Part shown: in pieces, positions 21,399 to 63,637 of the stretch | How positions within the stretch are numbered: the stretch's first letter is position 1 | How the letters are laid out: each line of letters begins with the position of its first letter | NCBI GenBank assembly: GCA_029168955.1 | Contig: JAPDOI010000010.1 | Span: 2,019,501 to 2,083,500 of the forward strand | Source of the DNA: Aplectana chamaeleonis | Taxonomy: Eukaryota; Nematoda; Chromadorea; Rhabditida; Cosmocercidae | Direction: 5' to 3' | Length of the DNA: 64,000 bases | Made by a program: the position numbers and the translations under genes | The notes under the pieces: generated by a model | Told to the model about the DNA's origin: nothing | Databases searched by the model: none | Seen by the model: the letters and a program-made list of their open reading frames with translations, nothing else

Positions 21399-21416
21399 CT
21401 CAGAAGATTAGAAACA

Positions 21417-21620
21417 GCTTGCGTGCCATCAAAAGCAGCGTAAACAGGCTGCGCGCCACGACTTTTTCTGAATGCTTCTTGCGCGCGCGGTCGTTTTCAT
21501 TAACCGTCTTGCGCGCCACGAGGCTGAAGCTTGCGCGCAGCCTCGAAGAATTTCTGCAGTAAGAGAAGCTTGCGCGCAGCTACTTTCTGGCGGAACAGGT
21601 TGCGCGCAGCGACCTTGGAA
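21417..21620 (+). repeat. E1 left subterminal CTTGCGCGC repeats
   Basis: Six irregularly spaced copies of a (C/G)TTGCGCGC(C/A)A(C/G) motif between 21,417 and 21,610, spaced about 20-40 bp. The same motif in the same + orientation lies at the other end of E1 and nowhere else in the window in clustered form. Confidence 0.85.
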
Positions 21621-22544
21621 GCGGAGAACCCTACATGTGCATTCGTGCATCTGAATCGATCGATTAACACATCCTCGGGCAAACTCTTCTCCGATAACTT
21701 CTACAATTCATCAACGCATGCATATCATCACTTTTCTGCAGCACTACATGCAGTAATTATCTACATGGTTCATATGTCTTCCTCGGCGTGGAAAAAATTC
21801 TCTTGGTCACATTCTGAATATTTCCCCCCGAATTTCCACACCCGCAGCACATTTTCTTATAATGGTGATCCTCTTCCAAGAAAGACATGTTAGATCTCTG
21901 TTTTTTTCTGACCCTGATTTGCAACCACGCATCTTTAATTGAAGTTTCTCGAAATTCTCTGAAAAGTTGTTGATTTTTTTCAAGCGTTTTTCGCATTCCT
22001 CTAACTTTTTTGGCAAGGTGTGATGCACATAGGATTCTAAAACGCTTCTTTCCTTTATCTTAACCTCTTTCTCGCTTTCAGTGCAACTCGTTCTTGCTCA
22101 AGATTCGCATTTAAATCCAGTGTGTTGTTTAAAAACTGATTGATTATACATCTCTATTTGTCTCCTATCTAAACATGAAATATGTCACCGCTTCGTAACA
22201 ATCAACACGTGTCATCTAGTCCTTATAGGGATCCCACGTATCGTTAGCGGCGACATATTTCATGCTTTCATAGGTGGCTAAAGTCATATACAGATAACTA
22301 GTATTACACTCTACTTTAAAAAAAATAAAAGGAACAAGAAAAAACTGCTTGAGAAGTGCACAAATGTTTTTGCACCTTGTATTCTTTAATATTCTATTTT
22401 TGGTTAAAATTTATTTCCGTTTTTCGTATACGTCTGAGTGCGTATGCTGCGTTTCCCTTCTCCATACTTTTCCGTTGTACCTCTGTTCACTTTGCACTGG
22501 TGATTAATGATTAAAAATCGTTCTATTTTCACAAAGAAACGAGT

Positions 22545-23000
22545 TTAGAGTGGTAAACGCATCTGCGAAAACGAATCGTATTATTAGTAACTCTTGGGCA
22601 TCCAGAGTAAAACTGCTTAGTAAGCCCCCACCCAAGCTACTGGTTCAAAGAAGTAATAAGCTTTAGACTGCTGTTTTCTGTACTTTTTGTACCTTCCAAA
22701 CCACCCAGCAATCTTACCAAAATCTGGAAAGAGACATACTAATCGTGTTCAGCGCCCAAAACAATCCCCCTTGACAAAGTTTGGGTAAAATTCCATTTCT
22801 CGAACTTTTCATTGTGTAGTAGCGTTTTCAACTTGTACGGCATGTTTGTTAAGCGCTTACTTCTACAAATTAGGGGGTTCTGAAAGCATTCTAGACAACT
22901 GTTCCAGATTTGACCTAAAATTTCGCAGGATGTTGATTTGCTGCGCTGATCACAAATCTGAGGTTAACTTGTACTCGCCACTATAGTACCGTTGTTAAGG
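22545..23000 (+). repeat. R-family copy, partial
   Basis: Starts GTTTAGAGTGGTAAACGCATC TGCGAAAACGA and continues with landmarks shared with the reverse complement of 40,743-41,272 and of 58,700-59,216: TTCAGCGCCCAAA, AAAGTTTGGGT, a TTGTACGG block and GTTCCAGA.TT. Divergence is high and the far end is indistinct. It lies inside E1, left of the LINE. Confidence 0.7.
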
Positions 23001-23249
23001 AGTCGAAAAAGCGATATTTTCCACCCACCTCTACAACACCACTTATCTTCGCTATGAAAACCGTAGCGCATAAATAGGGTAGACAGAAAAACCACCCGCG
23101 TTTTTATAAGTCCTGATTTTGCTTTTGCCGCTCGTTAGCTCTGCTCACCCACATTTCCCTTATATTGAAAATGTGTATACGCCGCTGTTCAAACGAAGCC
23201 AGCAAACAATGAGCAGTCGTCAAAGAATTTCTCACCCTATTGTCAATGT

Positions 23250-23972
23250 TTGATTTTATGTTTCAATTCTACTCCGCATGCTGTTTATATGACCTTGCTC
23301 TATCGAAGTTCTAGTTGTTCTGTAGCCCACTTTCGCGATGCACTTACTCACATTTCGGACACAATTCCAGAAAGTACGAACAATCTAATTTTAGGTGACT
23401 TGAACTTCCCATCTATTGATTGGAATGGACATAATACGAGTAAAACTTCCGGCTCTGCTCGCGACTTATTTGATTTCTGCACTGATCGTGCCCTCACTCA
23501 GCTCGTCACCACCCCTACGCATGGCTCTAATATACTAGATCTTATCATTACTAACAATGAAACTATTGTAGAAGACGTGAGAGTCCTTCCGCCGTTTTCC
23601 ACCTCTGACCACAATGTTGTTTCCTTCAGTCTTGCTGTGGATAAAACCAACTCACCTTCTGACTCATTTTATCAGGACTTTCCTAACGCCAATTATGATG
23701 CAATATGTCAAAACCTCCTCAGAATTAACTGGCGTCAGCTCATTGATCAGTGCAAGACTGCAGATGAGTGCTACAGCATTTATGTGGAGCATTGCAATGA
23801 CCTCATCAATAAATTTGTTCCGATTCGCTCCCAAAAAAAGTCAGTCAGTAAATATCCAGCTAGAATTCGCAACCTTGCATTTAAGGTTTATAGATTATTC
23901 AATGCGCGCTTTTTTATTGGAAGGCACAAGTATTTGCGTTTTTCTAGGAAACTCAAGCGGGAACTAGCACTC
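23250..23972 (+). pseudogene. LINE endonuclease domain, N-terminally truncated
   Basis: The open frame begins inside an apurinic-type endonuclease. It shows LILGDLNFPSIDW (the GD.N catalytic box), HGSNILDLIITNN and STSDHNVVSFSL (the SDH box), in the order and spacing of CR1/Jockey-type LINEs. The domain would nick target DNA to prime reverse transcription. After KLKRELALL the frame runs into a MITE at 23,973. The N-terminal catalytic segments are absent, so the protein cannot be functional. Confidence 0.9.
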
Positions 23973-24527
23973 TTAAAGGCAGTGGTCACGATGAAAAACG
24001 TTATCGAAAAAACTACAAAAATCAACTTAGATCAAAAACAGCTGAAAAACTATGAAGGTAGCGCGGTGAAAAACGGTCTACAAATAGAGTTTCTAGGGCC
24101 CAAAGAAGCTAGTTCGTGCACACGTGCACAGCGATGACGAAACAGATCGCAGTCTAATGCCGAGCAGTCAAAAATCATCGACATTCAGAGGACGAAATAA
24201 ATGCAAATTTAACGAATAAAAACGGTTGAATAATGAAAGCATCACCTCAGTCAATGTTTTTGACTAGATACACACATAAATTCGAAGGTTCATTGATTGA
24301 CATTCAATTTCAAGCTAGCTGATGTTCTTGATATAAGAGGTCATCGATGCCGATGAAGTGGAGAGGGCTCGTCCACCATCAAAGGCAAGAATGTTCAGGT
24401 TTCAAATTCGGCCCAAAACAGTGATTTTTTCGCGATTTTTTCTTATAGGTCCCACTACTCGAGACCCAGCAAAGGATTTGGAGAGAAAAAGACGACAAGC
24501 ATATTTGATCGCGACCACTGTCTTTAA
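23973..24527 (+). mobile_element. MITE M1a (AGGCAGTGGTC termini)
   Basis: Begins TTAAAGGCAGTGGTCACGAT and ends GCGACCACTGTCTTTAA; with TTAA at both ends this fits a TTAA target duplication, though TA cannot be excluded because the terminus itself continues the palindrome. An inverted copy lies 101 bp away (24,629-25,178) and a third copy at 46,935-47,472. Interrupts the LINE reading frame. No coding capacity. Confidence 0.85.
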
Positions 24528-24628
24528 ACCTCAAACAAGAAGAGAAAATCGCTAACTCTGCTAATCCGGAAGCTTTTATAACTTCGTCAACAATAGAATC
24601 AACCGTGTGAATTCAATCGGTACCTTAC
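24528..24628 (+). pseudogene. LINE linker sliver between two MITEs
   Basis: About 100 bp whose translation, with one frameshift, continues the LINE: KIANSANPEAF in one frame, then NFVNNRINRVNSIGTLL in another, joining NANGRPCESEVEKAEAFASF beyond the second MITE. This shows that the two MITEs inserted independently into one LINE copy. Confidence 0.75.
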
Positions 24629-25178
24629 TTAAAGGCAGTGGTCGCGATCAAATATGCTTGTCGTCTTTTTCTCTCCAAATCCTTTCCTGGGTCTCGAGTA
24701 GTAGGACCTATAAGAAAAAATCGCGAAAAAACCACTGTTTTGAGCCGAATTTGAAACCTGAACTTTCTTGTCTTTTGATGGTGGACGAGCCCTCTCCACA
24801 TCATCGGCATCGATGACCTCTTATATCAAGAACATCAGCTAGCTTGAAATTGAATGTCAATCAATGAACCTTCGAATTTATGTACACATCTAGTCAAAAA
24901 CATTGACTGAAGTGATGCTTTCATTATGCAACTGTTTTTATTCGTTAAATTTGCATTTATTTCGTCCTCTGAATGTCGATGATTTTTGACTGCTCGGCAT
25001 GAGACTGCGATCTGTTTCGTCATCGCTGTGCACGAACTAGCTTCTTTGGGCCCTAGAAACTCTAATTCTAGAACATTTTTCACCGCGCTACCTTCATAGT
25101 TTTTCAGCTGTTTTTGATCTAAGCTGATTTTTGTAGTTTTTTTTCCATAACGTTTTTCATCGTGACCACTGCCTTTAA
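24629..25178 (-). mobile_element. MITE M1b, inverted relative to M1a
   Basis: The reverse complement of M1a with scattered substitutions; it starts TTAAAGGCAGTGGTCGCGAT and ends CATCGTGACCACTGCCTTTAA. Together with M1a it makes a roughly 550-bp inverted repeat with a 101-bp spacer. Confidence 0.87.
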
Positions 25179-25414
25179 CGCTAACGGAAGACCTTGTGAG
25201 TCTGAGGTAGAGAAGGCTGAAGCCTTCGCGTCATTCTTCCAATCTGTTTACAAAAACCAAACAAATGATGAGATCAATCCATTTTCTTTCACATCGGATA
25301 AACTTGACTACTTGGATATTAATAGCGAGCTTGTTTACAGAACTTTGCTCAAATTGCCGCTTCGAAATTCAACATCGCCGGACAAAATTCCTTACATATT
25401 CCTCAAGAAAGCAG
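25179..25414 (+). pseudogene. LINE linker region before reverse transcriptase
   Basis: Open frame NANGRPCESEVEKAEAFASF through SPDKIPYIFLKKAA, the conserved lead-in to a LINE reverse transcriptase (EKAEAFASFF and the PDKIP box). The frame stops matching at 25,415, where E2 begins. It resumes at 33,123 as PGLTPVLTLLF, in frame if E2 and one AG are left out. Confidence 0.88.
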
Positions 25415-25431
25415 CTCAGACAACAGGTGCG

Positions 25432-25785
25432 GACTGACCGCTGGCAATCAAAGCCTCTCCGGGCGGTACGCCGGCAAGTTGCGGGCGGATCGCTGCTCAT
25501 CGTGGCCTCGGCTGGCGGATCGCTGGCCATCAAACCCTTTGCGGGCGGATCGCTGCGTTTTGGCGGGCGGATGGCGGTGCCTGGGAAACTTGAACACCCT
25601 AGCGGGCGGATCGCCGGCAAGCTCTAAAGCGGCGATCCGCCCGCAACCTGCCAGCGATACGCCCGCAAGGGCTTTGATAGCCAGCGATCCGCCCGCTGAG
25701 CTATGAGATGCAGCAATCCGCCCGCAACATGCCGGCGATCCGCACGCCAGGGCTTCGATAACCAGCGATCCGCCCGCTCAAATTG
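25432..25785. repeat. E2 left subterminal repeats, two opposing blocks
   Basis: An outer block (to about 25,622) repeats GCGGGCGGATCGCTGG on the + strand. An inner block (25,629-25,785) repeats its reverse complement, CCAGCGATCCGCCCGC. The two blocks could fold on each other. The same motif forms the right end of E2. GC content is far above the flanks. Confidence 0.9.
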
Positions 25786-26202
25786 TACACGGTGAAACTG
25801 GTCAATCAATGATGAGTGGATTGGAATTCATTTATTGATCCACTGCCACGTCATAAATCCCCATCCGCCATCTCTACTTCAGTGTCATAGTTGTTTCACT
25901 TCTATATGTCGCTTTTTTCTTGATGTTGCTTAATTGTTGAAAGATCTTATAATGCTTACCTTGTATTTAGCTCATTAGAGTACGTGTTCTTTAATTCTCC
26001 CAGTTTATCGCTAGTATCCTAATTCGGGGAAGCGGTTGTCTTTGAAAAAAAACATATGGTGTATGCTAGAAATGGAGAGAAAAACGCTTCGCTCAAAAGA
26101 TGGCGGAATAACATCTACGCCGCGGCTATTTAGAGATATGATAGAAACCATACAATATCGTTAAATTCTTGGCACAGATGGTGCTATGTACTATACTTCG
26201 GC

Positions 26203-26480
26203 GACTCGAAAATTTTTTCGAATAATCGAGTTTTCGACTAAGTCGATTTTTGAAAATTTCGAATAATCGAGTTTTCGACTAAGTCGATTTTTGAAAATTT
26301 CGAATAATCGAGTTGTCGACTAAGTCGATTTTTAAAAATTTCGAATAATCGAGTTTTCGACTAAGCCGATTTTTGAAAATTTCGAATAATCGAGTTTTCG
26401 ACTAACTCGATTTTTCAAAATTTCGAATAATCGAGTAGTCGAATTGACTCGATTTTTCGAATAATCGAATGGTCATGTTT
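26203..26480 (+). repeat. 41-bp tandem array of TCGAATAATCGAGT units
   Basis: AATAATCGAG recurs at 26,221, 26,262, 26,303, 26,344, 26,385 and 26,426, an exact 41-bp period. Each unit holds TCGAATAATCGAGTTTTCGA and CTAAGTCGATTTTTGAAAAT. The units are internally palindromic. Confidence 0.95.
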
Positions 26481-27504
26481 TTGACTAACTCAATTTTTCC
26501 AGTTAACAACAATTGAGTTTCTAAAGCGCCTTATCTCGACTATTTTGAGCATACCACTTTCTACTGCTTCAAGACATTGATTAAAAGTATATCTGGCAAA
26601 GAAAAACGCCATCTTCGCACAGTAAGACGGCCGGAACCAATACTCATGTATTAATGTCGATTAGCAATATCCATCGACCAAATTCCAGAAGCTTCAGAAA
26701 ACCAAACAAATTTCACTATAGGAGAGAAATACGGTTCAACGAAGCGAGATCATTTAATGGATGAACAATCAGAATTCATCTTTGGAGACGATAATCATGG
26801 AAAAAGCCGGAGCTGAGTGTAACAATAATTAGCCAGGGCAAATCGTAGTCTACTTCTAGATCATCCAAACTCATAGTGGACTCTCCGTCATGATATTCAC
26901 CCTCTTCGGCTAGACTTTAGCCGTTTTCCTCGTCTTTTTGGCCTTCATGGCCTTTTTCGTCTTCTTGCCCGATTTTTTCGACGGAGAGTGCAGCTTCTCC
27001 TCCGTTTCTGCGAAGCTGTGCTTCTGTGGCCACAATAGAAGTTGTTAGTTTTCTGGATCTCCCACCTTTTTTCTAAGAGAAAGGAGGATAAAGCCAAGCA
27101 TCAAAAACAATTTTGAAAACCAAAAGTTTCGGTTGCTTTGCGACGTTCCGCTGGTCCCAATGCATTCAAGCCTCTTGCATGCCTTTTTCCTCGAGCAAGG
27201 TGAAATAATTGACCGTCTTGTATTAATTTTCAGGCTATCGCGCGACCGTCTTGTTATCTCTAATGAGTTTATCGGTATGCTCACACGTGAGGATTGAGGA
27301 ATTTTGGCGTAAATCAATACCGGCTTTAAGTGAAAAAGATGGTCGTGAGCCGTACGAGAACATTCGATAACTATGAGCAAATAACAACTGGCGGCAAATT
27401 AGGTGCATGGTCTTCAACTGCATTTTGAAACAGTTTAACTGAAGGAGAACTTCTTTGACTCGAAACAGTCGACTATCGAATTTATTCGACTGTTCGGGTC
27501 TATC
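26481..27504. other. Interior of E2, no recognised gene
   Basis: Sequence between two arrays of the same 41-bp repeat. The longest frame, about 110 codons on the minus strand (27,045-27,380), shows no motif I recognise. The flanking arrays in the same orientation could mark a further insertion that split one array. Confidence 0.4.
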
Positions 27505-27700
27505 GAATAATCGAGTCTGCGACTAAGTCGATTTTTGAAAATTTCGAATAATCGAGTTTTCGACTAACTCGATTTTCAGGAATTTCGAATAATCGAGTTT
27601 TCGACTAATTCGGTTTTTCAAACTTTCGAATAATCGAGTAGTCGAATGACTCTATGTCGACTGTTTCAGTCGATACCAAGACTTGATGACTCGACTCGAC
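27505..27700 (+). repeat. Second 41-bp TCGAATAATCGAGT array
   Basis: Four units with the same motif and period as the array at 26.2 kb (near 27,508, 27,549, 27,589 and 27,630), same orientation, preceded and followed by degraded TCGAC stretches. Confidence 0.9.
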
Positions 27701-27889
27701 ATAAGTATACTATGTACTCATCCACGTTTTACAAGAGAAAGCTCAGGTCGCATCAGCGAAAACGACTTGTGTTGTCAGTATTTATTGGGCAACTAGGGTG
27801 GTGGTCGTAATGTATTCCGATTACGAAAGGGACGGGCAGAGGGGGATCATCGGAGCGCATGAGTGGACGAACGCTCTGAAGATTTCAGA

Positions 27890-28000
27890 AATGTTGCGAA
27901 CACTAATTTCAACAACTTACCGAAGTCTTCCGTAAGTTGTTGAAATCGTGATCGTAAGTTGCGCAGCCTCATGCCCTAATGTGTTCGCAACATTTTCGGA
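27890..28000. repeat. Nested foldback hairpins
   Basis: The outer arms AAATGTTGCGAACAC and GTGTTCGCAACATTT are perfect reverse complements. Inside, ATTTCAACAACTTAC and GTAAGTTGTTGAAAT form a second perfect stem around CGAAGTCTTCC. Probably a small foldback element. Confidence 0.8.
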
Positions 28001-28010
28001 ACTGTTCTGT

Positions 28011-30060
28011 AACTCTCTAAAATGTTGATTCCAACTAATAGTGTCTCACCGCGATCGACTGATCGCGATGCGAACCCTCCGCGGCGGCCATTAGGTCGCG
28101 GGGGCGCGGGGTTCGCGTTGCGACGACGGGCGATCGGGGCGCGGGGCTACACCCGCGTGTTAGTTACTTGCATGTGCATCTATGTATTGGTAGCGGTTGA
28201 AACCGATCATAGGAGCATAAAAGTGTTGTAACCTGAGTGAATCACCACCCAAGGTGAGCACAGTGAGCACTTAATACAGAAATAACTGCGGTTTAAAAAA
28301 AAGTTTTTTCTTCTCTGTTCAGGCTGTTTTGGCGAGGCGTAATATAATATTCGGTTTCTCTTACTAACCCAGACTCTTTATGGCTTCCCGTGAAACTTTT
28401 TATTTTTAGAGGTTTGCATTTGAAAAAATTGTGCATTAGCAGTGGTGAATAATTATATCTGTTGACACTCGTATCCTTTAGAATCCTTAATCTACCTCTA
28501 ATGAAAGAACATTCGGCTTCTATTAGCACTAGATGATGTCACCCACAAGGACTCACGGGATTCCTTCAATAGAGCAAATATAGCAATTTTTTTTCACAAA
28601 CTTTGATTCTTAAAATTTTTTTGTGCGATAAATTTGAGGCGCCAGTTTTGCTAGTTGAAAAGTTAAAACAAACCACTAATCAGAAATATTTGTTCTGCAA
28701 AGTATTGATTTTGTTTTCAAAAACTAAAAAAAACTTAGAATCGGTTGCTTTATAAAGTAATAAATAATTGTTAATGAATTGTGCATTTTTTGTTTCTACC
28801 CGTGCATAATGCAAAAAAAAAAAGAAATCTTTCTATTTTCACAAAAAAACGTGTTTTCTTCGTGCTGTTGTAGTGTAAGCGAAAAGTGTTCTCAATGAAG
28901 TCATTTTTTACATACTTTGTACAAAAGCAATTGAAATATAACACTTAGAAGCCAGGAAGAAAAATCGTGTTACATAGTGTAATCATTCTCTACTGCTACC
29001 ACACTCTTTATTCGAATGCAAATTTCTAAAAAGAACAAGTTTTACAGGCAGTGATAAGGAGTTTTGTTTGAAGGGAGAAATCGAGTTCTATATCACGCCT
29101 TGTTAAATAACTTAAAACATAGGAAAATTCTTTTTCAAGAAACCTCAGTTAATCTATCATCAACTTTGTAAAAATTAACCCATCTCATTTAGTCATCAAA
29201 AGCTGTTATAAACTGTGACTTGGAACATTATTCTTCATCGTACATATATTCTTGATTCAGATGCTAACCATTTGTGCCCATTTGAATTAACATAGTCACA
29301 GGAGAGCAGAAGTTTGCTTAGAAGTATGATTTCTACGGTATTACGCAGTATTTTGTAGAACATGCAATTCACATCTTCTCCATCCGCTGACGTGTACCCC
29401 GGCTACTTTGGTAATAAACCTTGGCTGTAGCTGTGAGCACGGCTCTCTGTTCCTCGTATATTCTACGACTGCTCCATCATCTTCTTCCAAAAGGGGATTT
29501 TGACAGTATTGCTACTAGTTTTCTACATTTGAGATTTCTGTTAATCAAATGCTATAAAGCCGTCAAAATCTGACTTTTGAACACGCTGTTTTATTTTTTT
29601 TTCTACTCGTGCTTGCTACCTCGTCTCGAAATTAACGCAAACAATAACAGGTGTCTAAAAAGAAATTTGATAAGGAAAAAAATTGAGAAAGGATATGTAA
29701 CGCACGAGCAAATGAAGGGTGGAAAACGATGAAACTGATCAATAAAGGAAGAGGTTGCAAGAGCCTTTCAGTTAGTTGCTGCTGCAAATATTTGTCACGC
29801 TCCCGACGTCTACTAGGTTGCCTGCCGAATAGCGCTATTCGTAACTAACGATAACTATACTGCAAGTTTCTATAAGCTCATAAGGCCCATCAAAACATGA
29901 TTTTAGCATTTTAACCTGCCCGTAACATTATCGAAAACTTCAGAGCGGGGGAGAAGCGAAGCGAAGCGCGTGAATGGAAGAGTCACAGAGTTTTCCCCGC
30001 CTCTCCTGCGCTTGGAATAATTTACGGTCATCCACTGACGGCTCTTTCAGTTTTTCGCTT
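28011..30060. other. AT-rich interior of E2, no recognised gene
   Basis: A GC-rich patch near 28,050-28,160 (a CGAACCC / GGGTTCG pair around GCGG runs) gives way to long A- and T-rich sequence to about 29.9 kb. No frame, splice pattern or RNA gene stands out. Confidence 0.4.
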
Positions 30061-30205
30061 TGAAATTATTTGAAAAATTATTCGAATATATTCGAGTCGA
30101 TTTCATTCGAAACTATTCAAAATTCGGACCTCGAAAAAAAGAGGCCATTCGAATATATTCGAAAATCGGACGTTAAAAAAAGGGAGTCATTCGAATTCGA
30201 TATTC
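30061..30205 (+). repeat. Degenerate ATTCGAATATATTCGAA repeats
   Basis: Three imperfect units of about 60 bp, each built on CATTCGAATATATTCGA with an AAAATCGGAC/TTCGGAC tract. Similar in character to, but not collinear with, the 41-bp arrays; a like patch occurs at 59,845-59,965. Confidence 0.6.
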
Positions 30206-30424
30206 GGTCTTTTCTTCCAGGGCACAACTTAAGTAAACTGGTGTCAACCTTGTTTTTAGAGGAAGCGAGCCTCCTTCGAGGGAAGTAGATATATGATGCA
30301 TTTTTCAGGCGCAGGAGTCAGATGGCAGCTGCGTCCTCGGTTCAGTTACTGAAGTTTGCGGTGCTTGAACCCTATCTGGAGGTCCATCTCACCCAGTGAA
30401 GGCCCAATAGAAGTTGGGAGGAGT

Positions 30425-30541
30425 CGTCGCGCCGCGTGTCGGGGTGCCGGCCGCATCGTGTGTCGCTGTGCCGGCCGCGTCGCGTGTCGGCGTGCAGGCG
30501 GTGTCCCGGTTTAGCGTGCAGGCTAGCTGTGTGGGCGCAGT
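30425..30541 (+). repeat. 24-bp GC-rich minisatellite
   Basis: About 4.5 units of GTGCCGGCCGCGTCGCGTGT CGGC with substitutions, exact 24-bp spacing. Both strands are open in several frames only because the period is a multiple of three; I do not regard it as coding. Confidence 0.85.
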
Positions 30542-30737
30542 GTTGAATTCGAGTGATGAGGTTCCCCAATTTGGATATGTGGACCGTGACTGCCCACATT
30601 TTTGAGGATTTTCTATGGGAGGATACGAAAGGTAAGAATTTGAAAACCTGAATATATCCGAAAGTCCGAGTTTCAAAGAAGTCGAATTACGATATTTGAA
30701 ATGTCGTATCTGCATGGATCCTAATGAGACGTTCTGT

Positions 30738-30798
30738 TCCCTAGTAAACGTTGGCGCAAGCTCGGTGCCATATGCTAATACATAGGTGCACCAAGTTT
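30738..30798. repeat. Short imperfect hairpin
   Basis: GTTGGCGCAAGCTCGGTGCC and the reverse complement of its partner, GTTGGCACAAACTTGGTGCA, pair around a short AT-rich loop. A related half occurs at 31,951-31,971 (TTGGCGCAAACTCGGTGCA). Confidence 0.6.
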
Positions 30799-31023
30799 GT
30801 GCCAACCTTCAATCAGGAACGCATGGTAAATAGAATTTCATTATTCCGAGACCCACAATGCAGATTTTTCTGGAACTTAGGCAATGTAGGGAGCCCTAAC
30901 TCTGTGAAAGTGCCGAGTGAGCCAAATTGTCCGCTCTAGCACAATGTGATTTTACTCCATTTGCCAAAAGATGAAAATGCGACTAGTTGTAGCTAGCAAA
31001 ACGTTTTGGCGCGATTTAGTTAG

Positions 31024-31141
31024 TTGGCCGTATTCATGAAACAAAGGGAGCCTCCCGGGAAGGTCCAAAGTTCGCCCAACGCATACACTGGCTGCTTATA
31101 GGAACCCTTCCGGGAGGCTCCCGTAGTTTCATGGATATGGC
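31024..31141. repeat. Foldback with about 40-bp stem
   Basis: The left arm around ATGAAACAAAGGGAGCCTCC CGGGAAGG and the right arm CCTTCCGGGAGGCTCCCGTA GTTTCAT are near-perfect reverse complements. The pairing extends outward through GGCCATAT-like sequence, with a loop of about 45 bp. The size would suit a small RNA hairpin precursor, but a foldback element is more likely. Confidence 0.75.
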
Positions 31142-32210
31142 CACAGAACTTGTCAGGGTGATTGTGAACTGGCGCCCTGAAAGGATGGTCGCGTGAATGA
31201 TTCCACAATATCCAACCTGCGCCCCATATTGGAGCACAATCGAACCGCAAAGCACACTACTAGCGCAGCTGATGAGCTTCAAATCTCTACTTCCCTAATC
31301 GGAGTTAACTTTGGGTCTGCCGCTGCAAACAACCGTAGTTGCAGCGAGCAGCTCGGATATACTAGAGCTGGGTCTACGGGGTCACGGCACTATCATTTAG
31401 GTCCCAGCAAGATTGTTTGTAAGCTGCGTGCTGCAACAGACCTTATCTGCAAATGCGGAGCGCTATTTCACTCCTGTTCGGACACTGCGGGGCGGGCTGG
31501 ACGTAATTCTTTTGAGAGACCGAGGCACTGCATTCAATTTTTGAAGAGCTTGACCAACTTCCGTGTCTGGTGTTCGAAGAGGCCTATCGTACACCGGTGG
31601 GTCAATCTGTTGTGAACCAACTTCTAAGAAAAATTGTAAAGTTTTCAAACATTAAAGGGTAGAATATGAGACACGGGACGGAGTAAACGAATTGATTCAT
31701 TATTATGTGGGTATAAGGCAGTAGATGAGCAGTACTGAGGTGTGCAGAAGTACGGCCGGCACCGCTTGCCCACATAGAGTTCGCGCAATAATTTCAGTCT
31801 GATGAATGGACGAGGCTGCGACGGTAGATCACCCCGCGCGAATCGAAACCCAATTCTCCAGTGGGGCCGCCAACTCCGCACTGCCAGCCGCCTGGTTCAT
31901 GCGTCAGACTAAAACGAAAACGGAAACCATACCTTGCGTTCATTATTGTGACTTGGCGCAAACTCGGTGCACGCAAGTTATGTATAACATAGGCACATCG
32001 GCTTTGCTCCAAGAAACAATAAGGAAAGCAAAATATCAAAGCGATATGTTGTCCACTATACGCCGGTTGGGGTCTAGGGTGCAGCACAAATATCAGGGCT
32101 TCAGTTTCTTGGGCAGTAAAAAATTTTTGACCGGATTTTTTGGCCCAGGTTTTCCTCAACAGGTTTAGGTAGTCAACTCTTTGGGTTGATTAACACTGCG
32201 TTATAGACGC
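31142..32210. other. Interior of E2, no recognised gene
   Basis: Several overlapping frames of 60-140 codons on both strands, none with a motif, intron signals or composition that sets it apart. Nothing called. Confidence 0.4.
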
Positions 32211-32694
32211 TTAAAGTCACAGTCCAAGCTCAGGGGCCAAATCTAAGATTTCCACATAATTATGAAGTAGACCCACCCCGTATAACACCTGCCAAGTGAG
32301 AGCTCTCGATTCCACAGAATAAGCGAGATATAGGAGGAAGCCAATCTAGGGCGCCAACACCAGGAAGCCACTTTGGCACGCCCCTTTACTATCTTTCGAG
32401 CTGAGCAGTGGCGAGATGAGTGATGATTTCCGATCAATAGCACCGTTCTTCCCTACATTCTCAGCCTCCCTCTTTGTTCAGGTCGGCTCGCATCCATAGG
32501 TTGCAAATGACGGAAGTTACAAGCCTCGGACAACTCGTCCACCATGCTTCCGCAGCTCAATTTTTGAGGGGCCACAACTCCGCTTCCAGGGGGCCTTGTA
32601 CGACTAGAGAGACATCATTGGAATCAGCGTGAGACCATTTTCAAGATAAGAAGGGAAACAGAAAATCGATTTTGAGGTTGGACTGTGCCTTTAA
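32211..32694 (-). mobile_element. MITE M2c, diverged
   Basis: Ends TTAAAGTCACAGTCCAA and TTGGACTGTGCCTTTAA. The interior follows M2a (33,156) and M2b (54,510) in reverse orientation: ATGAGTGATGATTTCCGATC, CAACTCGTCCACCATG, TTTTCAAGATA and ACAGAAAATCGATTTT. It is nested in E2. Confidence 0.75.
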
Positions 32695-32748
32695 GAATTG
32701 GTCCCCGACCCGAGGGATCAAAAGGAGAAGGGGTTCAAATTACGGGTA

Positions 32749-33120
32749 CATCACTGATAACCGGCGGGTAGATCGCTGATAACTGGCGGGTGGATCGATG
32801 ATAACTGGCGGGCGGATCGCTGGTTACTGGCGGGCAGATCGCTGGCTACTGGCGGGCGGATCGCTGGTTACTGGCGGGCGGATCGCTGGCTACTGACGGG
32901 CGGATCGCTGGCTACTGGCGGGTGGATCGCTGGCTACTGCCGGGCAGATCGTTGGCCACCGGCGGGCAGATGGCTGGCTACTGGCGGGCGGATGGCTGGC
33001 TACCGGCGGGCGGATCGCTGGCTACTGGAGGGCGGATCGCTGGCTACTGGCGGGCGGATGGCGGGGGGATGTCGATCCGCCCGCCAAAAGCCAGCGATCC
33101 GCCCGCACCTTCTGTCTGAG
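32749..33120. repeat. E2 right subterminal repeats, two opposing blocks
   Basis: About 14 units of a 22-bp repeat (ACTGGCGGGCGGATCGCTGG CT) run on the + strand to about 33,068. A short outer block then carries the reverse complement up to the CTCAGA terminus. As at the left end, the outer block faces inward and the inner block is reversed. Confidence 0.92.
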
Positions 33121-33155
33121 AGCCCCAGGCCTGACTCCCGTATTGACACTTTTAT

Positions 33156-33648
33156 TTAAAGGCAGTGTTCACGATGAAAATCGTTTTTCTGTTTTTTCAC
33201 CTATCTTGAAAAGGGCCCCATGCTGATTCTAATGATGTCTTTGAAGTCGTTCAAGACCTTTTGGGAACGGAGTTATGGCACCTCAAAGATTGAGCTATTG
33301 AAGATGGTGGACGAGTTGTCCGAGGATTGTAACTTGCGTCTTTTGCAGCCGATCTATGCGAGCTGACCTGAGTAAAGAGAGAAGTTGAGAATGAAAGGAA
33401 GAACGGGGCTAATGATTGGAAATCATCGCTCATCTGACGATCTCGAGCATTCATTTGTTCACGTCGGTGGGCGTGTGATGCGCTTTTGAGGTTTGCCTTG
33501 CGCTCGAAGTGGCAACTTTGGGCTCTTTTGGAGCTTTTCCTGGCTTGTTTTCATGCGTTCTTCCGACGTCAGCAATACAGTGTGCCCCTCCACTACCCAT
33601 TCCTAGTGGAAACTGAAACACATTTTTTATCGTGAACACTGCCTTTAA
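33156..33648 (-). mobile_element. MITE M2a (AGGCAGTGTTC termini)
   Basis: Starts TTAAAGGCAGTGTTCACGAT and ends ATCGTGAACACTGCCTTTAA. It lies in the LINE reverse transcriptase; leaving it out with one TTAA joins TLLFN to the CLLHGEVP segment (one stop codon at the junction). Two minus-strand frames, 33,251-33,454 and 33,451-33,639, stay open in M2b as well. Confidence 0.88.
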
Positions 33649-35032
33649 CTGATGCCTTCTTCACGGAGAAGTACCCTCATTATGGCGGTTAGGTTTTGTC
33701 AGACCAGTTTTCAAGAAAGGCAGCAGAACAGATTTCAGGAATTATAGGCCTATATGTCTCACTTCTTCAACTAGTAAAGTTTTGGAAAGAATTGTTTGCA
33801 AACAACTCTACTCTTATCTACACACCAACTCTCTTTTCACTGACGCTCAGCACGGTTTTTTGTCCAAGAAGTCCACAGCAACTGCATTGATGTCCACCAT
33901 TCCTGCTTGGCAAAAAACACTTGACTCAGACGGCTACGTAAGCGCATGCTACGTAGACTACACAAAAGCTTTTGACTCTATCCCTCTTGATCTTCTCTAC
34001 TCAAAGCTACGAGCATATGGACTAAAAGGTTGCCTGTTGGAGTTCTTGCAGTCATTCCTAAATAATCGTACCCAGAAGGTTCTGGTTAACGGCGCCTTTT
34101 CTGACAGCTACCCCACACCTAGCGGTGTCCCTCAAGGTACTTGTATTGGGCCATTGATGTTTTTACTCTATATTAATGACATGCCCAACTGCCTTCCCCC
34201 GAATGTACAATGCTCAATCTATGCAGATGATTCTAAACTGTTCACAATCAATAACGTCACTGCTCTTCAGCAAGCATTGAACGCATTGCTATCCTGGTCC
34301 ACAAAATGGAAGCTGGATATATCGCTTGATAAAACTTCGGTGATGTATATTGGCCGCAGGCACCCTCAAAATTGCATTTTTCATCTGGGTAGTCACCAGC
34401 TTATAGTTTCCGATTCTGTTCGAGACCTTGGAATTCAGTACTCCAATCGCCTTTCTTTTGAGGAGTATATCGATAAGGTCATAAGAATAGCTCACGCCAA
34501 ATCGAATCACATATTCCGAGCTTTCAGATCCAGCGACCCAAGAGTACTTTTCAGACTTTTTGAAACTTACGTTAGGCCGATTCTAGAATATTGCACTCCA
34601 TTATGGTCACCATCACAAAAGCAATACATTGACAAAATCGAAAACGTCCAAAACAGGTTCACAAAGCAGATATTTGCCAGAAATGGTCTGTTCCGTCTCA
34701 GCTATCGAGAGCGTTTGTCTCGCCTTCGCTGCAATTCATTGCAGCTTAGGCGAGTCATTTGCGATCAAAAATTCCTTTTTAAGATCATTATGGGTTATGT
34801 AGACATCAACAAAACTGAGATCATATCTTTTTCAAGGTTTAATGAAAGAACTAGAGGTCATCAATTCAGAATTTACACTGGAATTGTTCATACACAGCAA
34901 TGTCTTGAGTCCTTTTTGGTGCGTTCGGCAAAAGTTTGGAACGATTTGCCACCTGAACTAGTTTTGTCATCAACGCCGGAAAGTTTCAGTAATGGACTCG
35001 AAGCTTATCTCAAGAGGATGGGTTTCTTTTAA
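33649..35032 (+). pseudogene. LINE reverse transcriptase, main part
   Basis: Continuous frame from about 33,655 to the stop at 35,032. Motifs in order: FVRPVFKKGSRTDFRNYRPI, HGFLSKKSTATAL, VDYTKAFDSIPLDLL (first catalytic Asp), GVPQGTCIGPLMFLLYINDM, SIYADDSKLF (the catalytic YADD), DKTSVMYIG, VRDLGIQYSNRLSFEEYI, RPILEYCTPLW and SAKVWNDLPPEL. All reverse transcriptase boxes are intact here; the gene is dead only because of the insertions and 5' loss upstream. The protein would copy LINE RNA at the nicked target. Confidence 0.95.
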
Positions 35033-35271
35033 TTTTGAGTTTTGCTTCCACGCTCTTTTAACTCTACTTCTTTTCAGATTCAATTCCTGCCTTTTGTAAT
35101 TCTATATATCATTACTTGAAACTGTAAATGTCATCCTTTTCACTATTACTTACTATGATTTCACCTAGGTACTGCTTTTCTCTACAATATCAGTTTGCTT
35201 AAGCCTTTCTGGCAGCAACTTTGACTAATCACCTCACAAGACAATGTTGTTTTTTTTCTGATCCTCCCTAT

Positions 35272-38200
35272 GCTGTACAGGGATCTACCTCCTCGTTGGT
35301 GTACGGTGGAAGCGTTCACAGACCCTGTAGGGTTGCCTGGCAAGCCTTGGTGTGAACGACGAACAGATCCAAACTGTCTCCCCCCTAGAATGTCAGCGTC
35401 AAGCCAGCGCTGAAGCGTTCATGGGGCTCATCCCACGCCCTTGCCCGGCTAAGGATGAGATCTAGGAGACGAATGCCTTTACGCATCGACATCCAATCAG
35501 CTGCCCCAGTCCTCCGCACACCGCGCCCAGCCGTCTGCGACGTCGGAAGGTATGGCAACCGGTGAGGGGCGATCAAATCTCGGAGTACGCAGGACGTTTT
35601 ATGGAAACGGACAAACTGGACCGGACAAACACAGGCATCACGACTGTGTACGATTTTGCTCTTTCAACGCCCGAACTCTTTCAACTGAAGCGGATCAGGA
35701 CGTCTTTTTGAAAGCTGCGGATCGAATACTTTACGATGTTATAGCAGTACAGGAGACAAAGACGAACAAAGATTCCGTGCAGAAATTGAAAGATGGAAGA
35801 TTGTTGATTCTCGGAAAAAAAGTGGAGGGACGGAATGTTGGCGGTGTTGGCTTCTTACTCAACAGCACCATGGCACACACTATGGATTCGCACTTCATCT
35901 TCTCCCCGCGCCTGGCCGTTTTACGACTCAAGCCCAAAGGACACCCAGCAATCTCTATCATAGACGCATATGCACCAACAACAGCTGCTGCGGATGGTGA
36001 ACTCGATGAGTTCTACGATTATCTCGAGGATGTAGCAGCTAAAAAAAAGAAGCTTTCACAAGATTTGCCTGGGCGACTTCAATGCTGTCTTCGGAAGAGC
36101 AATAGATAGAGAATGAAGAATTGGACCGCATGGAGGCATCACCAGGAACGATATTGGTACTCGTCTGGCAGACTTTTCGGGTAGCGCAGGTCTGTTTCAC
36201 GAGAATTGGTTTTACAAGAAGCCCGAAAGTCGAAGATGGATCGGAAGTCACCAAAACGGAACGACGTCGAATGAGATTGACCATTTTTCGTCAATCGGTA
36301 ATAGGCCCTCGTAAACGTCGGCACTGTTCCATAATTCGTTACTGGCTCCGACCACAGACTGCTTCGTGCAAAGCTTTGACTAAAAAATGACTTCACGCGG
36401 AAGCACCTTTGTCATAGATTCTGCAGCAAAGTCCGAACCGTGGATTCAGAAGTGATGCAGCGCAGTGTAGCCGATACGCAATGGAATGTTTTTGATGTTC
36501 CTACAGACGATTACGAGGACCTGTGTCGCAAGATAAAGGACGACGAAAAAAAATTCATTGGTTGGAGCAGTGGAACCAATTGAGAGGCTGCGCAAGGACA
36601 CTAAACTGTTGCTGGAAAAACGCCGCCTGGTACATCTCGATCCAAACACCAGTCACTTGGAACGTGTTACGATCAGCAAAGTTTGCAGAGCTGAGGTATC
36701 GAGCGATTTGAAGCAATATCGAGCGCGGAAGTTGTTGGACACCGTGAACCAGAGGAAAAGCATCAGGTTTTGTCGGAGAGAGCTGTCAGATCGCAGAGAA
36801 CAAGTGTCAGCACTTCGGGATTCCTCGGGTTGCATTTGCACGTCCCGCACTGGTATGGAAAAAATTGTGGTGGATTTCTAAAGCACTCTCTTCAACTCAA
36901 CACTGTCCGTGCCGCGTAGCCCACTACCTGCAATAGCAGATGACCCGACTCCAATCCTTGAGAGTGAAGTTGCTTTTGCTGTCAAAGGGATGAAGGAAAA
37001 CACAGCTACTGGACCAGATGGCATTACAACCGAGTCCCTCAGAGCGGGTGGTTCACCTTTATGGAAAGTTCTTGCGGAACACTTCTCCAGATACCTCGCG
37101 CAAGGATTGGTTCCCGCGCAGTGGAAATCGTCAAGAACGATACTTCTATTCAAAAAGGGTGATCGGGATGACATCGACAACTACAGGCCAATCGCTCTAC
37201 TCTCAGTGCCGTACAAGGTCTTTACGAAGATTCTGCTGAACAGGATAGAGAAGGCTCTGGACGACTTCCAGCCCAGAGAACAGGCAGGCTTCCGTAAGGG
37301 TTACTGCTGTCTTGATCACATTCAGGCGCTATCGCAAGTCATTGAACGGACAAGGGAGTACCATCTACCTCTAGCGCTCGTCTTCGTGGACTATACCAAG
37401 GCATTCGAATCGGTTGAAGTCCCGGCTGTTCTTAACGCTCTCATCCACGCTGGTGTTGACGCCCAGTACATCAGAATATTGGAAGAATGCAACAACGGAA
37501 GCAACACCATTATTCAACTATTCGAGAGGAAACTGAAGGTGTCGATTGGAAAGGGTGTCAGACAGGGAGATACCATCTCGCCGAAGCTGTTCACGACCGC
37601 GTTACAAGACGTGATGCGCCACATCGACTGGGACGGCAAAAGTATCCTCATAGACGGGTGCAGACTATCCAACTTGCGCTTCGCTGACGACATTGTGCTG
37701 TTGGGTTCGTCTTCCGCAGAAGTCGAAGGAATGCTTAACGAACTGGACGCTGCAGGAAAAGCGATCGGCCTTACAGTGAATCTGAGGAAAACCCAAGTGA
37801 TGCGCAACCAGTGGTGTGACGACAGTCCCATTCGTCTCTCTGGCACTCTCCCCTACCCACTACGAAGAGCTACGTCTATCTCGGAAGAGAGGTGAACATG
37901 CAAAACGACTTGTCTACGGAGATCGGACGGAGACGACGAGCGGCCTGGTCTGCACTTGGATCGATAGTGGAAGTGACAGACAAGTTGCGGGATGTGAAGA
38001 CACGAGCACGTTTGTTCGACACCACGGTGCTACCTGCGTTGTGCTATGGAACCGAGACATGGGCGGAAACGAAGGCGACCACACAGGCCATAAGGACAGC
38101 TCACAGGGCCTTGGAACGCAGACTACTGAAGACTAATCGTCGTGCCCAGCGAGCTGGTGGCCTACGCAGTGCTGATCTTTGAAAGCAGTCGCAGTTAATG

Positions 38201-39707: not shown

Positions 39708-39864
39708 CAGGTTGCGCGCCACTACCTAGCAGAGCGCGCGCCACTACCCAACAAGCTTGCGCGCAACCACCTATGAAGCTTACGCGCCACGAAGTAACAA
39801 GCTCGTTGAAGAAATCAGTGAGCTTGCGACGAAGTAGCGCGCAAGGTGTTCAAAACCTTCTGAG
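39708..39864 (+). repeat. E1 right subterminal CTTGCGCGC repeats and terminus
   Basis: GTTGCGCGCCACTACC, GCGCGCGCCACTACC, CTTGCGCGCAACCACC, CTTACGCGCCACGAAG and CTTGCGACGAAG follow one another and lead into the terminus GCGCGCAAGGTGTTC to TCTGAG. Confidence 0.85.
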
Positions 39865-47472: not shown

Positions 47473-47639
47473 TAGCGAGTCCAAGACTTCATGGCATCGT
47501 TCGGGCAGAGAACCACTTTCCATTTCTCAGGCTCATTGTGATGAATGATCCCGGTAGACCTCACCGGTAAACTTTGGCGTCTCAAAAACGCAGGGTAATA
47601 TACTCAGAGGATCGCGGGGTCGTAATGGAGCACAATAGG

Positions 47640-49447: not shown

Positions 49448-50189
49448 CCCTGGACATTCCTCTAAGCAGTGCGAATTTCAGCGACTCAAGAATACTTTGA
49501 GGAGAACTTCATTCTTGAAGTGTGTGAATATAACTTTTTCTAAAAAGAAAGTCATAACTCTACACGTGGAAACTCGGAGAAAATTCGTTATGGGGTCCTC
49601 AAAACTAATCTCAGATTGAACAGTTTCACAAGTACTGCTGGTTCAGCATTCGCCTCCTTAAGATTAGGTCCGGATTATGTGCCCCGTTCTTTTCCTTCTT
49701 TCAAACGCTAAGCTACTAGTATTCTTCTTGAGTGGTAATTTTTCAGTTTGTTTTTCTGCTGTGTCATATTCAACGCCCGTTTTTTCACGTCTACCCTATG
49801 TAGCGTATTGAATAAATAAAAAAATAATTCGTCTTTAAAAACGAGGGAAACAGATTATCACGCCTAATTTAAAACTCTATAGTCACGAAACCGAGTGAAA
49901 ATCAATTCCTGTTCAAGGAATAGAGAAATTCTGTGTCAGGAAATGATTTTTGAGATGCTCACATACACTATTGGCCGAGGCCTTTGTTGAACGGCCCTCG
50001 CAAACTCGTGCAAGATACGAGGCGACCTAGGGTGCGCATGAGACAGCCCGTAGTGCCAGCATCATTTTCTTCAATTGTGGCAAAGATCATTGGATATAAG
50101 CAACCATGAAAGACCCGTTAAAGTTATCAATGAGCCTCACTGGGGTCTTTGTTTTTGATTGGTCGACGCAGCGCTGCTGCTGAGCTCTA

Positions 50190-50507
50190 CCCATCCCCTG
50201 CCGGAGAAGGTGTTATGAGAAGGAAAAGAAAGATTATGAATGAGGAGCAGCAATCGGGGCCACCATGAGGAGCAGCAGTTAGGGCCACAAGCAGGAGCAG
50301 CAGTTGGGGAGACGACTGGAGCAGTTGGGGCGACTGTAGCAGCACGTGAAGCCACTATACGAGCAGCAGTTGGGGCAGTGAGCGGAGCAAGAGAACACAA
50401 TGTGCTGCCCTGGCCAGCAGTTGGGGGAACGAAAGAGGCTTACACCTCGACGAGTAACTGCGTTAGTAATCCCCTCGTGCTGCCTAACTAAGCCGCGAGC
50501 ATCTGAG
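50190..50507. repeat. E4 right subterminal GAGCAGCAGTTGGGG repeats
   Basis: About seven units of GGAGCAGCAGTTGGGGC with variable spacers, then GTGCTGCC boxes, TTACACCTCGACGAG and CCCCTCGTGCTGCC, ending at the CTCAGA terminus. Confidence 0.8.
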
Positions 50508-61384: not shown

Positions 61385-61501
61385 TTAAAAATTTTTACGC
61401 GTGAATGGCGCGTTTCGTTGTTGCCTGCAGACAGTGCTGCCTAGTTGACGGTTGTACGTTTCTGCAGGGGTGTCTATTTGGAAACAGCCCAGTACCGGGT
61501 C

Positions 61502-61690
61502 CTCAGATAATTTCTGGGCACGACGCCTCGGCGAAAAGGGTGTTTTCGGCAGAGCCTCGTCAATGGTTGGCGACGCCTCAACCACTTTCAGCGACGCCCT
61601 GGCAGAGAAGTTTCGAAATACGAAAACGGGTCGACGCCTCAGCGAAGAACGTGTTTTGTCGACGCCTCGCCCTTGTTTGGCGACGCCCCG
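61502..61690 (+). repeat. E3 left subterminal CGACGCCTC repeats
   Basis: CGACGCCTCGGCGAAAAGGG TGTTTTCGG, GCGACGCCTCAACC, GCGACGCCCTGGC, CGACGCCTCAGCGAAGAACG TGTTTTG, CGACGCCTCGCCC and GCGACGCCCCG follow at 20-50 bp spacing. Confidence 0.88.
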
Positions 61691-62303
61691 TCAATGAACT
61701 CACGGCCCTTTAATTACCCAATATTGATGCAAATTTACACAGGTCTGAGTCTCCACGTCAGTGGCAACCATTGTTGAGTCGTCTGCAAGCAGTGGTGTTC
61801 TTTTCATCATTCCTCCGTTCATTCTAACGTATCTACAGCCTTAATAGTGCCAAATGAACCAGCACTCACCAACTGATTTTCTGAGCAGTCCGATTTTGTG
61901 GGTATCAGTTTGTATAATTTGCAGGCATGCAGTCATTTCTCTTATATGGCTGTAATTTACTTTTTGATTTTACGTTTTGCGAGAGCCACCACGGTTTTCC
62001 GAAGCAAGATCTGCAAAACGATGGCAACAAATTCATAATCTACATAAACGGTTTGACATTGTCCCAAAAGGTGAGTTAAAATTTCTTCTTTTAATGATCC
62101 TTTTGTATCGGTTTTTCTTTCTTGTAGATTCTAATGAAACCTGTGGGCATATATTTTCGAAACATCCTGAGGGCCGCTGACGGGGTTTTAGTAGGGGATG
62201 CTATTGAGCGCTGTCAAGGAATATTCGGTGTAGCTTACGCTTGTACCAAAAATGAACATTTAATTTCAGTGTTTATTATGTACCATTGTCCTGTCTTTCC
62301 TAT

Positions 62304-63108
62304 ATGAGCGATATCAATCGACCGTGCCGCATGTTTAGGTCAATGAGTGACGTCCGCCCCCTCCAAGGTATGGTACCATATGTGTTTTGGTATGGGAAAG
62401 GTTTACTGCGCCTTTTTAGGCATTTCAAATATTGCAGACCTTATCCTTTATGCATTGGTATCCCTGTCAATGGAAAGGAAATGTGATCATACTTTCTTAG
62501 TTGGGAAAGAAGGAGTATCACGTTGAGGAGATGTCCTTTTTCGCACGGAACGGTGAGTTAACCGACACTTTGAGATTACGTTCCATAAGAGATATGCAGA
62601 ATGCAGTTTTTTGTAGAACTATCTCGATGTTTCGAATCGTTTCTTTTCTTGTTTGTGCGGCAAGAAAATCTAATTGCTCCCTTCTTACTGCTGCCGACGG
62701 AACAAACGTCCTATCCAAGGCGGGTTTTATCAAATTTTCTGTGTCATATTCTATTCAGATGTTTTGACCAGGTCAAATTGACATGTGGTATGAAGACAGT
62801 AACGTTTGTAACACTTGTTTGAGAACTCGGAGAAGAGTAGAGGTAGATGGAGGTTTTGCCTTCGCTGACATTAATTTTACTATTTCAGATAGACTACATG
62901 GCTAGATATATGTATTATATGTATAGATTCTGCACAAAGATCTGCTAGAATATTTCTCTCTATTCCATATTTGGAATTTTAACATATCAACGAGGTAGGT
63001 TTTCTCGAGTTGAACCATTTTTTGGCTACGATATACTTATTTTCTGTGTTTCAGGGCCTCTTCAATAATTTACGCGGTGGTGCTGTGGACTACATTGAAG
63101 GATCGTGA
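62304..63108 (+). CDS. Candidate spliced gene inside E3, unidentified
   Basis: The acceptor TTTAATTTCAG at 62,259-62,269 precedes ATG 62,304. A chain of GT-AG exons 62,304-62,367, 62,420-62,457, 62,501-62,552, 62,617-62,771 and 63,055-63,108 keeps one open frame of about 120 codons: MSDINRPCRMFRSMSDVRPL, ISNIADLILYAL, GKKEYHVEEMSFFARN, LIAPFLLLPTEQTSYPRRVL and GLFNNLRGGAVDYIEGS with stop. Introns are 43-64 nt apart from the last. The donor AACG/GTGAGT and acceptors TTTCTTAG, TTTTGTAG and GTGTTTCAG are good; one 43-nt intron is short. Other frames are also fairly open, so this remains tentative. An upstream exon pair (61,925-62,070 and from 62,128, intron GTGAGT to CTTGTAG, 57 nt) may be a separate gene or an earlier part. 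The protein is not recognised; it could be captured host sequence. Confidence 0.3.
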
Positions 63109-63547
63109 TGAAAAATGAGACTGATGTGGATTTGAAGCCTTCTTCGTCGACTTCGCTCCTGCTGTCATCCTGGTCACTGGAAATTACCCTGATTATGGAT
63201 ACCAAGTGCATAAGAATTTTCTCCACAAAACAGCTTGATTTTCACACGTATGTACCATTGTATTGTGTGGAACTGCTGTTATAAAGTGTTATAAAATGAA
63301 TAAATACTTGTGAAATCTTTGTTTTGGTGAAATAGGAAGGGATTAGGACTTGTATGAAAAATCTGAGCAAGTTTGCAGCTCAATGTAAGTTTCGGAGCAG
63401 AAATAGTAAGAACAGAAGGAAGGAGCGCACAGCGAAAACGGTGAAAAAACGTCTATCGTGCTCTAATAAGAACGCCGCTGTGGGCGCGACGCGCTCGACG
63501 AAAATTGTGAGGGTCAGTTAACGCGCTCCAAGGACAATCACTTTCAG

Positions 63548-63637
63548 CGACGCCTCGGCAAATGGTCGTCGACGGCTCCCGGGGGGGGTTCGGCCGCCGA
63601 CCATTTGCCGAGGCGTCGTGCCCAGAAATTATCTGAG
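63548..63637. repeat. E3 right subterminal hairpin and terminus
   Basis: CGACGCCTCGGCAAATGGTC at 63,548 pairs perfectly over 21 bp with 63,598-63,618, with a 29-nt GC-rich loop containing a nine-G run. The outer strand leads straight into the terminal inverted repeat. Confidence 0.92.

Follow-up and report, generated by a model that had tools for sequence, protein, structure and literature searches.

DNA transposons with CTCAGA termini, short target-site duplications and family-specific subterminal repeats in the nematode Aplectana chamaeleonis

The stretch of DNA analysed here (the window) comprises 64,000 nucleotides of the Aplectana chamaeleonis genome (GenBank assembly GCA_029168955.1, contig JAPDOI010000010.1, positions 2,019,501 to 2,083,500 of the forward strand; C10:2019501-2083500, where C stands for contig). 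It carries four elements, E1 to E4, that begin with CTCAGA, end with TCTGAG and are flanked by an identical dinucleotide on both sides. These elements almost certainly represent a genuine group of DNA transposons, which is probably of the CMC (CACTA-Mirage-Chapaev) type, with a terminal hexamer of its own. Their terminal inverted repeats (TIRs), flanks and main insertions, among them long interspersed nuclear elements (LINEs), are as follows, in window coordinates:

21399..39864, unstranded, E1: CTCAGA..TCTGAG ends, flanks AA/AA; two LINEs and E2 inserted
25415..33120, unstranded, E2: CTCAGA..TCTGAG ends, flanks AG/AG; nested in a LINE within E1
47603..50507, unstranded, E4: CTCAGA..TCTGAG ends, flanks TA/TA
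61502..63637, unstranded, E3: perfect 31-bp TIR, CTCAGA..TCTGAG ends, flanks TC/TC

The coordinates, ends and matching dinucleotides agree with those reported in the first-pass annotation, as does the inverted similarity that extends inward from the hexamers. Over the first 31 bases the two ends match at 23 positions in E1, 26 in E2, 23 in E4 and 31 in E3, with 13/15 across the first 15 bases of E4. At spacings of 0.5-20 kb, the window contains 106 CTCAGA..TCTGAG pairs, of which 10 have equal flanking dinucleotides. Ranked by matches among 25 inner bases, E3 (25), E2 (20), E4 (17) and E1 (17) take the first four places; they are the only pairs with at least 17/25, and the flanks are equal in 4/4. 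The fifth-best pair shows 12/25 inner matches and unequal flanks. No pair with at least 17/25 was found in 200 Markov-shuffled versions of positions 13501-64000, where the maximum was 15.

Inside the TIRs, each element has its own subterminal repeat, as the first-pass annotation had also proposed, and several elements carry later insertions:

21446..21616, + strand, E1 left subterminal TTGCGCGC repeats, 4 copies (repeat comparison)
39711..39845, unstranded, E1 right subterminal TTGCGCGC repeats in both orientations (repeat comparison and reading by eye)
25456..25778, unstranded, E2 left subterminal GCGGGCGGATCGCTGG repeats in both orientations (repeat comparison)
32763..33066, + strand, E2 right subterminal tandem array, 22-bp unit, 13.5 copies (tandem-repeat detection)
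50239..50440, + strand, E4 right subterminal AGCAGCAGTTGGGG repeats (repeat comparison)
61521..61693, + strand, E3 left subterminal CGACGCCTC repeats (repeat comparison)
63548..63618, unstranded, E3 right subterminal CGACGCCTC repeats, making an inverted repeat (repeat comparison)
47974..48135, + strand, second copy of the E4 left end within E4, 83% identical, beginning CTCAGA (repeat comparison)
23169..24134, + strand, non-LTR retrotransposon endonuclease inside E1 (Pfam PF14529/PF03372)
33653..35029, + strand, reverse transcriptase inside E1, beyond E2 (PF00078)
35459..38179, + strand, second LINE inside E1 (reverse transcriptase above the cut-off, endonuclease-like piece below it)
26187..29960, unstranded, 3.8-kb internal segment of E2 with 41-bp tandem repeats, missing from the family copy L050

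The repeat motif differs between E1, E2, E3 and E4, is present in both arms of each and often overlaps the TIR, and neither the interiors nor the subterminal repeats are related between families. The second left end of E4 sits 371 bp inside the element and is possibly a nested or internally duplicated end.

The span of E1 is largely due to insertions. The endonuclease is interpreted as the 5' portion of a LINE within E1 and, together with the reverse transcriptase at 33653..35029, probably formed one LINE that was split by E2; the four best hits of this reverse transcriptase are from Ancylostoma ceylanicum, with 49-59% identity (59% for the two best). With LINE borders estimated, the DNA of E1 itself amounts to about 1.6 + 1.3 kb (about 3 kb of 18.5 kb), and E1 is thus not an 18-kb element, being an element of about 3 kb with two LINEs and a nested E2. 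The nesting gives the order of insertion as E1, then the LINE, then E2. In E2, the segment at 26187-29960 is probably a later insertion as well, a deletion in L050 being the alternative. The E2 open frame at 31181-31612 was considered as coding and rejected: compared with L050, the differences fall 10/12/7 by codon position, with 26 indel columns, and therefore give no sign of coding. In E3, a stretch at 62040-62200 with intron-like borders (GTGAGT..TTGTAG) lies between two open pieces, as read by eye, and could be a captured gene fragment.

Copies of these ends were sought in the whole assembly (1,036,593,504 bases, 2087 contigs), allowing up to 3 mismatches and using the reversed pattern as a control; the E1, E2 and E4 patterns were degenerate and derived from both ends of the window elements. 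DNA fetched from elsewhere in the genome is labelled L, and the places were chosen among the matches listed, at most about 100 per search. The genome-wide matches numbered 137 for E3 (66+71), 291 for E1 (144+147), 3135 for E2 (1567+1568) and 1594 for E4 (794+800), with 0 for each reversed control. The further copies on which the first-pass annotation had staked its proposal are therefore present in large numbers.

Two further families were recognized in a scan of 43 sequences (336 kb including the window), a non-random set taken around E3 and E2 copies, with pairs up to 9.5 kb apart and thus without E1. Both were picked up by their ends alone, in one copy each: E5 (L031:2557-6314, 3.76 kb, flanks TA/TA), with subterminal repeats in both arms, and E6 (L042:7200-7821, 622 bp, flanks AA/AA), with one two-copy GC-rich repeat in the left arm only. 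Genome-wide, the E5 end gave 1574 matches (789+785), many of those listed forming pairs 3-4 kb apart, and the E6 end 1120 (556+564), which brings the six families to 7851 end matches. Compared by eye, E1 to E6 have just the first six bases in common. A weak further pair, L038:526-842, shows 15/25 inner matches and TG/TG flanks. The right end of E5 breaks a minus-strand reading frame (L031:6164-6874) that resembles, by eye, an open reading frame (ORF) in L046; both are tentatively taken, by eye, to be Penelope-like.

In the same 43 sequences, 46 CTCAGA pairs had at least 15/25 inner matches, and 38/46 of them had equal flanking dinucleotides, against 41/280 for the pairs obtained with 179 permuted hexamers, a comparison in which pairs within one family or locus are not independent and the sequences had been chosen around E3 and E2 copies.

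The first-pass annotation had described a family of large elements. The spans given for the window are correct, but large size is not supported as a feature intrinsic to the group: most simple E3-family copies measure about 2.1 kb, and 18/22 E2-family pairs outside the window (20 checked pairs plus L049 and L050) measure 0.6-1.0 kb. The E3 family comprises two subfamilies (13 and 8 copies), whose majority sequences are 92-96% alike in their first 200 bases and about 79% alike overall. This suggests that the left end is more constrained than the interior, recombination or gene conversion being alternative explanations. Copies of subfamily A are 95-99% identical to their own majority sequence, which therefore points to fairly recent activity.

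The flanks of many copies were examined in two families. For E3, 22 pairs were picked by eye among the matches listed and 20 were fetched; the composite locus L010 was set aside, and equal dinucleotides were found in 17/19. The misses were L012 (GC/CG) and L018 (CG/AC, though with a 3-bp ACG repeat). L010:201-3480 consists of two shortened E3-family copies placed back to back, 88 bp apart and nearly mirror images; if counted, one has equal flanks and the other does not. A second set of 20 loci of 10 kb was taken at unpaired ends, with a partner end defined by up to 9 mismatches in 30. The partner was present in 14/20 (6 had none), and 12/14 had equal dinucleotides, with L035 and L045 as misses. 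In total, 29/33 paired E3-family copies have equal 2-bp flanks (binomial p = 4e-31 at 1/16). For E2, 20 pairs were picked by eye among the first 100 of the 3135 places; 14/20 have equal 2-bp flanks (p = 4e-13 at 1/16), three of the remaining six show 3-bp repeats (GTA, ACA, ATA) and three show none. Two additional E2-family copies, L049 (TA) and L050 (CA), also have equal flanks.

The duplication is thus usually 2 bp and at times 3 bp, the latter being seen in L018, L065, L067 and L083. In both families the agreement greatly exceeds the chance level of 1 in 16 that had been set for the flanking dinucleotides. The E3 family uses 13 different dinucleotides over 29 sites and therefore has no strict target, while TA accounts for 7/14 equal-flank sites of E2. 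Tc1/mariner elements, which duplicate only TA, do not fit, as TA occurs in just 1/29 E3 sites.

Uninterrupted sites provide the best evidence that the ends are placed correctly and that insertion gave rise to the elements. For 41 insertions, the two flanks were joined with one dinucleotide kept and searched against the fetched DNA. Uninterrupted paralogous sites with one dinucleotide were recovered for 6/41, all of the E3 family (L009, L019, L024, L027, L029 and L033), and the counterpart of the L033 insertion lies in the window itself, at 61237-61481. Other hits (L020, L023, L026, L030, L040 and L043) were too gapped, weak or A-rich to read, and the fetched DNA held no uninterrupted site for the E1-E4 copies of the window.

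For the E3 and E2 families it is established that the elements insert with exact ends and duplicate 2 bp, in some copies 3 bp, of the target. The group displays precise TIR ends, dispersed multicopy occurrence and, in the E3 family, target duplication together with an uninterrupted site, which are features of cut-and-paste transposons. The CMC assignment is drawn from the anatomy of the elements, namely their subterminal repeats and their duplications of 2-3 bp. The elements would be non-autonomous members of one cut-and-paste group in the nematode host. A catalytic transposase common to the group or to close relatives would cleave and join the DNA at their terminal six bases, and each family may have a DNA-binding protein or domain of its own that recognises its subterminal repeats, comparable to the situation in En/Spm-type CACTA elements. 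The catalytic enzyme would be a DDE transposase of the CMC clade, which is characterized by C(2)C and H(3-4)H motifs, acting in trans.

The duplications, mostly of 2 bp and some of 3 bp, fall within the 2-5 bp of the CMC clade, for which the part of the literature cited also gives 2 or 3 bp in PlavakaB (PMC12730594) and a 2-bp TA duplication in the fungal CMC element CNEST (PMC12810828). The first-pass annotation had correctly described a DNA-transposon group with shared ends, short duplications and family-specific repeats, but it held the ends and duplications against a CACTA relationship, and this case is weaker than claimed because published animal CACTA relatives, in the portions cited, have CCC or CAC at their ends and duplicate 2 bp (PMC1636069, PMC4298943, PMC6004678).

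Several observations weigh against the CMC assignment or against a single group. All six families end in CT..AG, not in the 5'-CA..TG-3' of most CMC lineages, although 5'-CA ends are not strictly defining, because TRC elements begin with CCC; the CACTA or CAC core of strict EnSpm/CACTA elements is absent from the CTCAGA ends. One shared enzyme is not required, the common hexamer beside unrelated interiors only suggesting one. For E1, E4, E5 and E6, the evidence of duplication comes from a single copy per family. A separate point counts against the distinctness of the four window pairs: when all hexamers are ranked by pairs with at least 13/25 inner matches and equal dinucleotides, CTCAGA (4 pairs) comes only eighth; among the high counts, CCGCCC, GATCCG, ATCCGC and CAGCGA were traced to the repeat arrays of E2, CGAGTT to 41-bp repeats, AAAAAT to A+T-rich pairs with low scores and AAGGCA to another transposon family, described at the end.

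The search for a transposase adds to these points. Pfam comparison of 146 ORF pieces of at least 48 amino acids from E2, E3, E4 and E1 outside the LINEs gave no transposase, the best unrelated hit having E 0.0018. Genome-wide, Transposase_21 (PF02992, the CACTA family) gave 0 matches and DUF1258 (PF06869) a single one, at C84:1493093-1493485, unlinked to the elements, in searches where no control gave a signal. The nearest end to this match among those listed is of the E4 type, 29 kb away; the listed E2 and E5 places do not reach C84.

The assumed autonomous partner was also sought among the copies. The four long E3-family pairs (4.7-6.3 kb: L014, L016, L027 and L028) were considered as autonomous copies and rejected, having been enlarged by insertions: L014, L016 and L028 carry LINE pieces and L027 repeat-like insertions (ORFs of at least 80 amino acids, by eye). 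ORFs of at least 170 amino acids in L009-L048, read by eye over their first 150 residues without a family scan of the loci, included no recognisable transposase. The E2-family copy L050 measures 4.8 kb and contains a presumably mariner-like insertion with ORFs at 584-1625. Among about 45-50 copies with fetched interiors, mostly read by eye and not including the long E1 and E5 pairs, there was no autonomous copy, and the copies look non-autonomous. Among the matches listed, long E1-type pairs (C314:78126-84024, C39:2069081-2075885, C715:109916-117795 and C2:1376789-1385855) are the most promising remaining candidates for one; E5 pairs of 7-8.4 kb lie at C10:1835536-1843976, C39:2837094-2844869 and C22:2980842-2987845. 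ORF pieces with the CRDVVRSCRGSVEERR motif were seen by eye within or beside E3-family copies in L014, L016, L023, L027, L028 and L046; they apparently belong to one LINE family, hinting at an insertion preference or a shared spread.

It is unlikely, though it deserves consideration, that the group is a new DNA-transposon superfamily outside both CMC and PHIS, defined by CTCAGA ends and 2(-3)-bp duplications. In keeping with this, none of the open-licence papers listed as containing CTCAGA describes such a family, judging by title, and the genome has no match to Transposase_21, DUF1280 (PF06918) or DUF7869 (PF25273), again with no control giving a signal. In addition, DDE_Tnp_4 (PF13359) occurs in the genome, but none of the 44 matches compared lies inside an element among the matches listed. 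However, Pfam searches miss divergent CMC transposases, the DUF families were a presumptive choice, no search was aimed at Mirage or Chapaev in their own right, and the literature covered excludes Repbase and Dfam, so that novelty is unproven. A broader and rather doubtful proposal is that CTCAGA..TCTGAG marks a superfamily of nematode DNA transposons not yet described, or else a new branch of CMC, in which one catalytic enzyme would read nothing but the hexamer and many non-autonomous families would compete, each through its own subterminal repeat code.

Assignment to PHIS (ISL2EU or Harbinger), a group with duplications of 0, 2 or 3 bp, is improbable. The duplication lengths given for Harbinger relatives in the portion of the source cited (0, 2 or 3 bp; PMC12730594) would suit the elements, as would the 143 PF13359 transposase matches in the genome. 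However, of the 44 compared, which lie on contigs also carrying a listed end, 43 have no listed end pointing at them within 15 kb, and the remaining one, C34:3004919, falls outside the pair of its end, 3015361-3016880. The site preferences of ISL2EU and Harbinger, AT or TWA, also differ from the 13 dinucleotides used by E3.

There is very little to be said for a chance set or for convergence of unrelated transposons on CTCAGA ends. The unrelated interiors and repeats would fit such a reading, but six families have the identical six bases in the identical place with equal flanking dinucleotides, and permuted hexamers in the set described above fall far below the CTCAGA pairs. Foldback or inverted-duplication structures formed without transposition are a negligible prospect: some CTCAGA pairs do lie within palindromes (the inner pairs of L010 and L043:2165-2666), but duplicated dinucleotides and, in the E3 family, uninterrupted paralogous sites contradict them.

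Under the favoured CMC assignment, the closest published parallels are the animal TRC elements SmTRC1, Spongebob_HMa and ENS1_Cis, which, in the portions cited, share the 2-bp duplication (7/14 copies of SmTRC1), a short conserved terminal core and, for SmTRC1, a tandem-repeat region (PMC1636069, PMC4298943, PMC6004678). They differ in their CCC or CAC ends, and the SmTRC1 protein is defined by Transposase_21, the family with 0 matches here in a search where no control gave a signal. The fungal CMCT element Plavaka resembles the present group in having both 2- and 3-bp duplications in one lineage (PlavakaB; PMC12730594), and differs in its TGT..ACA or CATCA..TGATG ends and its fungal host.

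Plant En/Spm elements combine a short terminal core, CACTA, with family-specific subterminal repeats in both orientations and a 3-bp duplication; the organization is alike here, with CTCAGA in place of CACTA and a duplication of mostly 2 bp. Mirage, a CMC lineage known from Caenorhabditis elegans with a 2-bp duplication, is similar, by description, in its nematode host and duplication length, and is where these families would likeliest already be described. The hexamer ends and the 2-3 bp duplication provide a simple rule to find and classify thousands of elements in a 1-Gb nematode genome. Furthermore, families with a common hexamer and different subterminal repeats would offer a way to examine how transposase recognition is shared between a universal cut site and family-specific binding sites.

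The window also holds separate elements with inverted AAGGCAGTG ends at 23976-25175 (24/25 inner matches), 54513-55830 (21/25) and 33159-33645, each preceded by TTA and followed by TAA. They can be read as TTAA duplications around AGGCAGTG..CACTGCCT ends, and TTAA duplication is typical of piggyBac- or Kolobok-type elements. A 110-bp tandem repeat (60420-61002, 5.3 copies, 95% matches), with a GC-rich palindrome in its units, lies about 500 bp to the left of E3. Positions 1-13500 form a long satellite-like array, recognized by eye from recurring ORFs, with units of about 0.5 kb; a 289-bp tandem pair lies at 10953-11531 in this region. Finally, a tRNA-Gly (GCC) gene at 42483-42556, detected with ARAGORN and Rfam, is located between E1 and E4.

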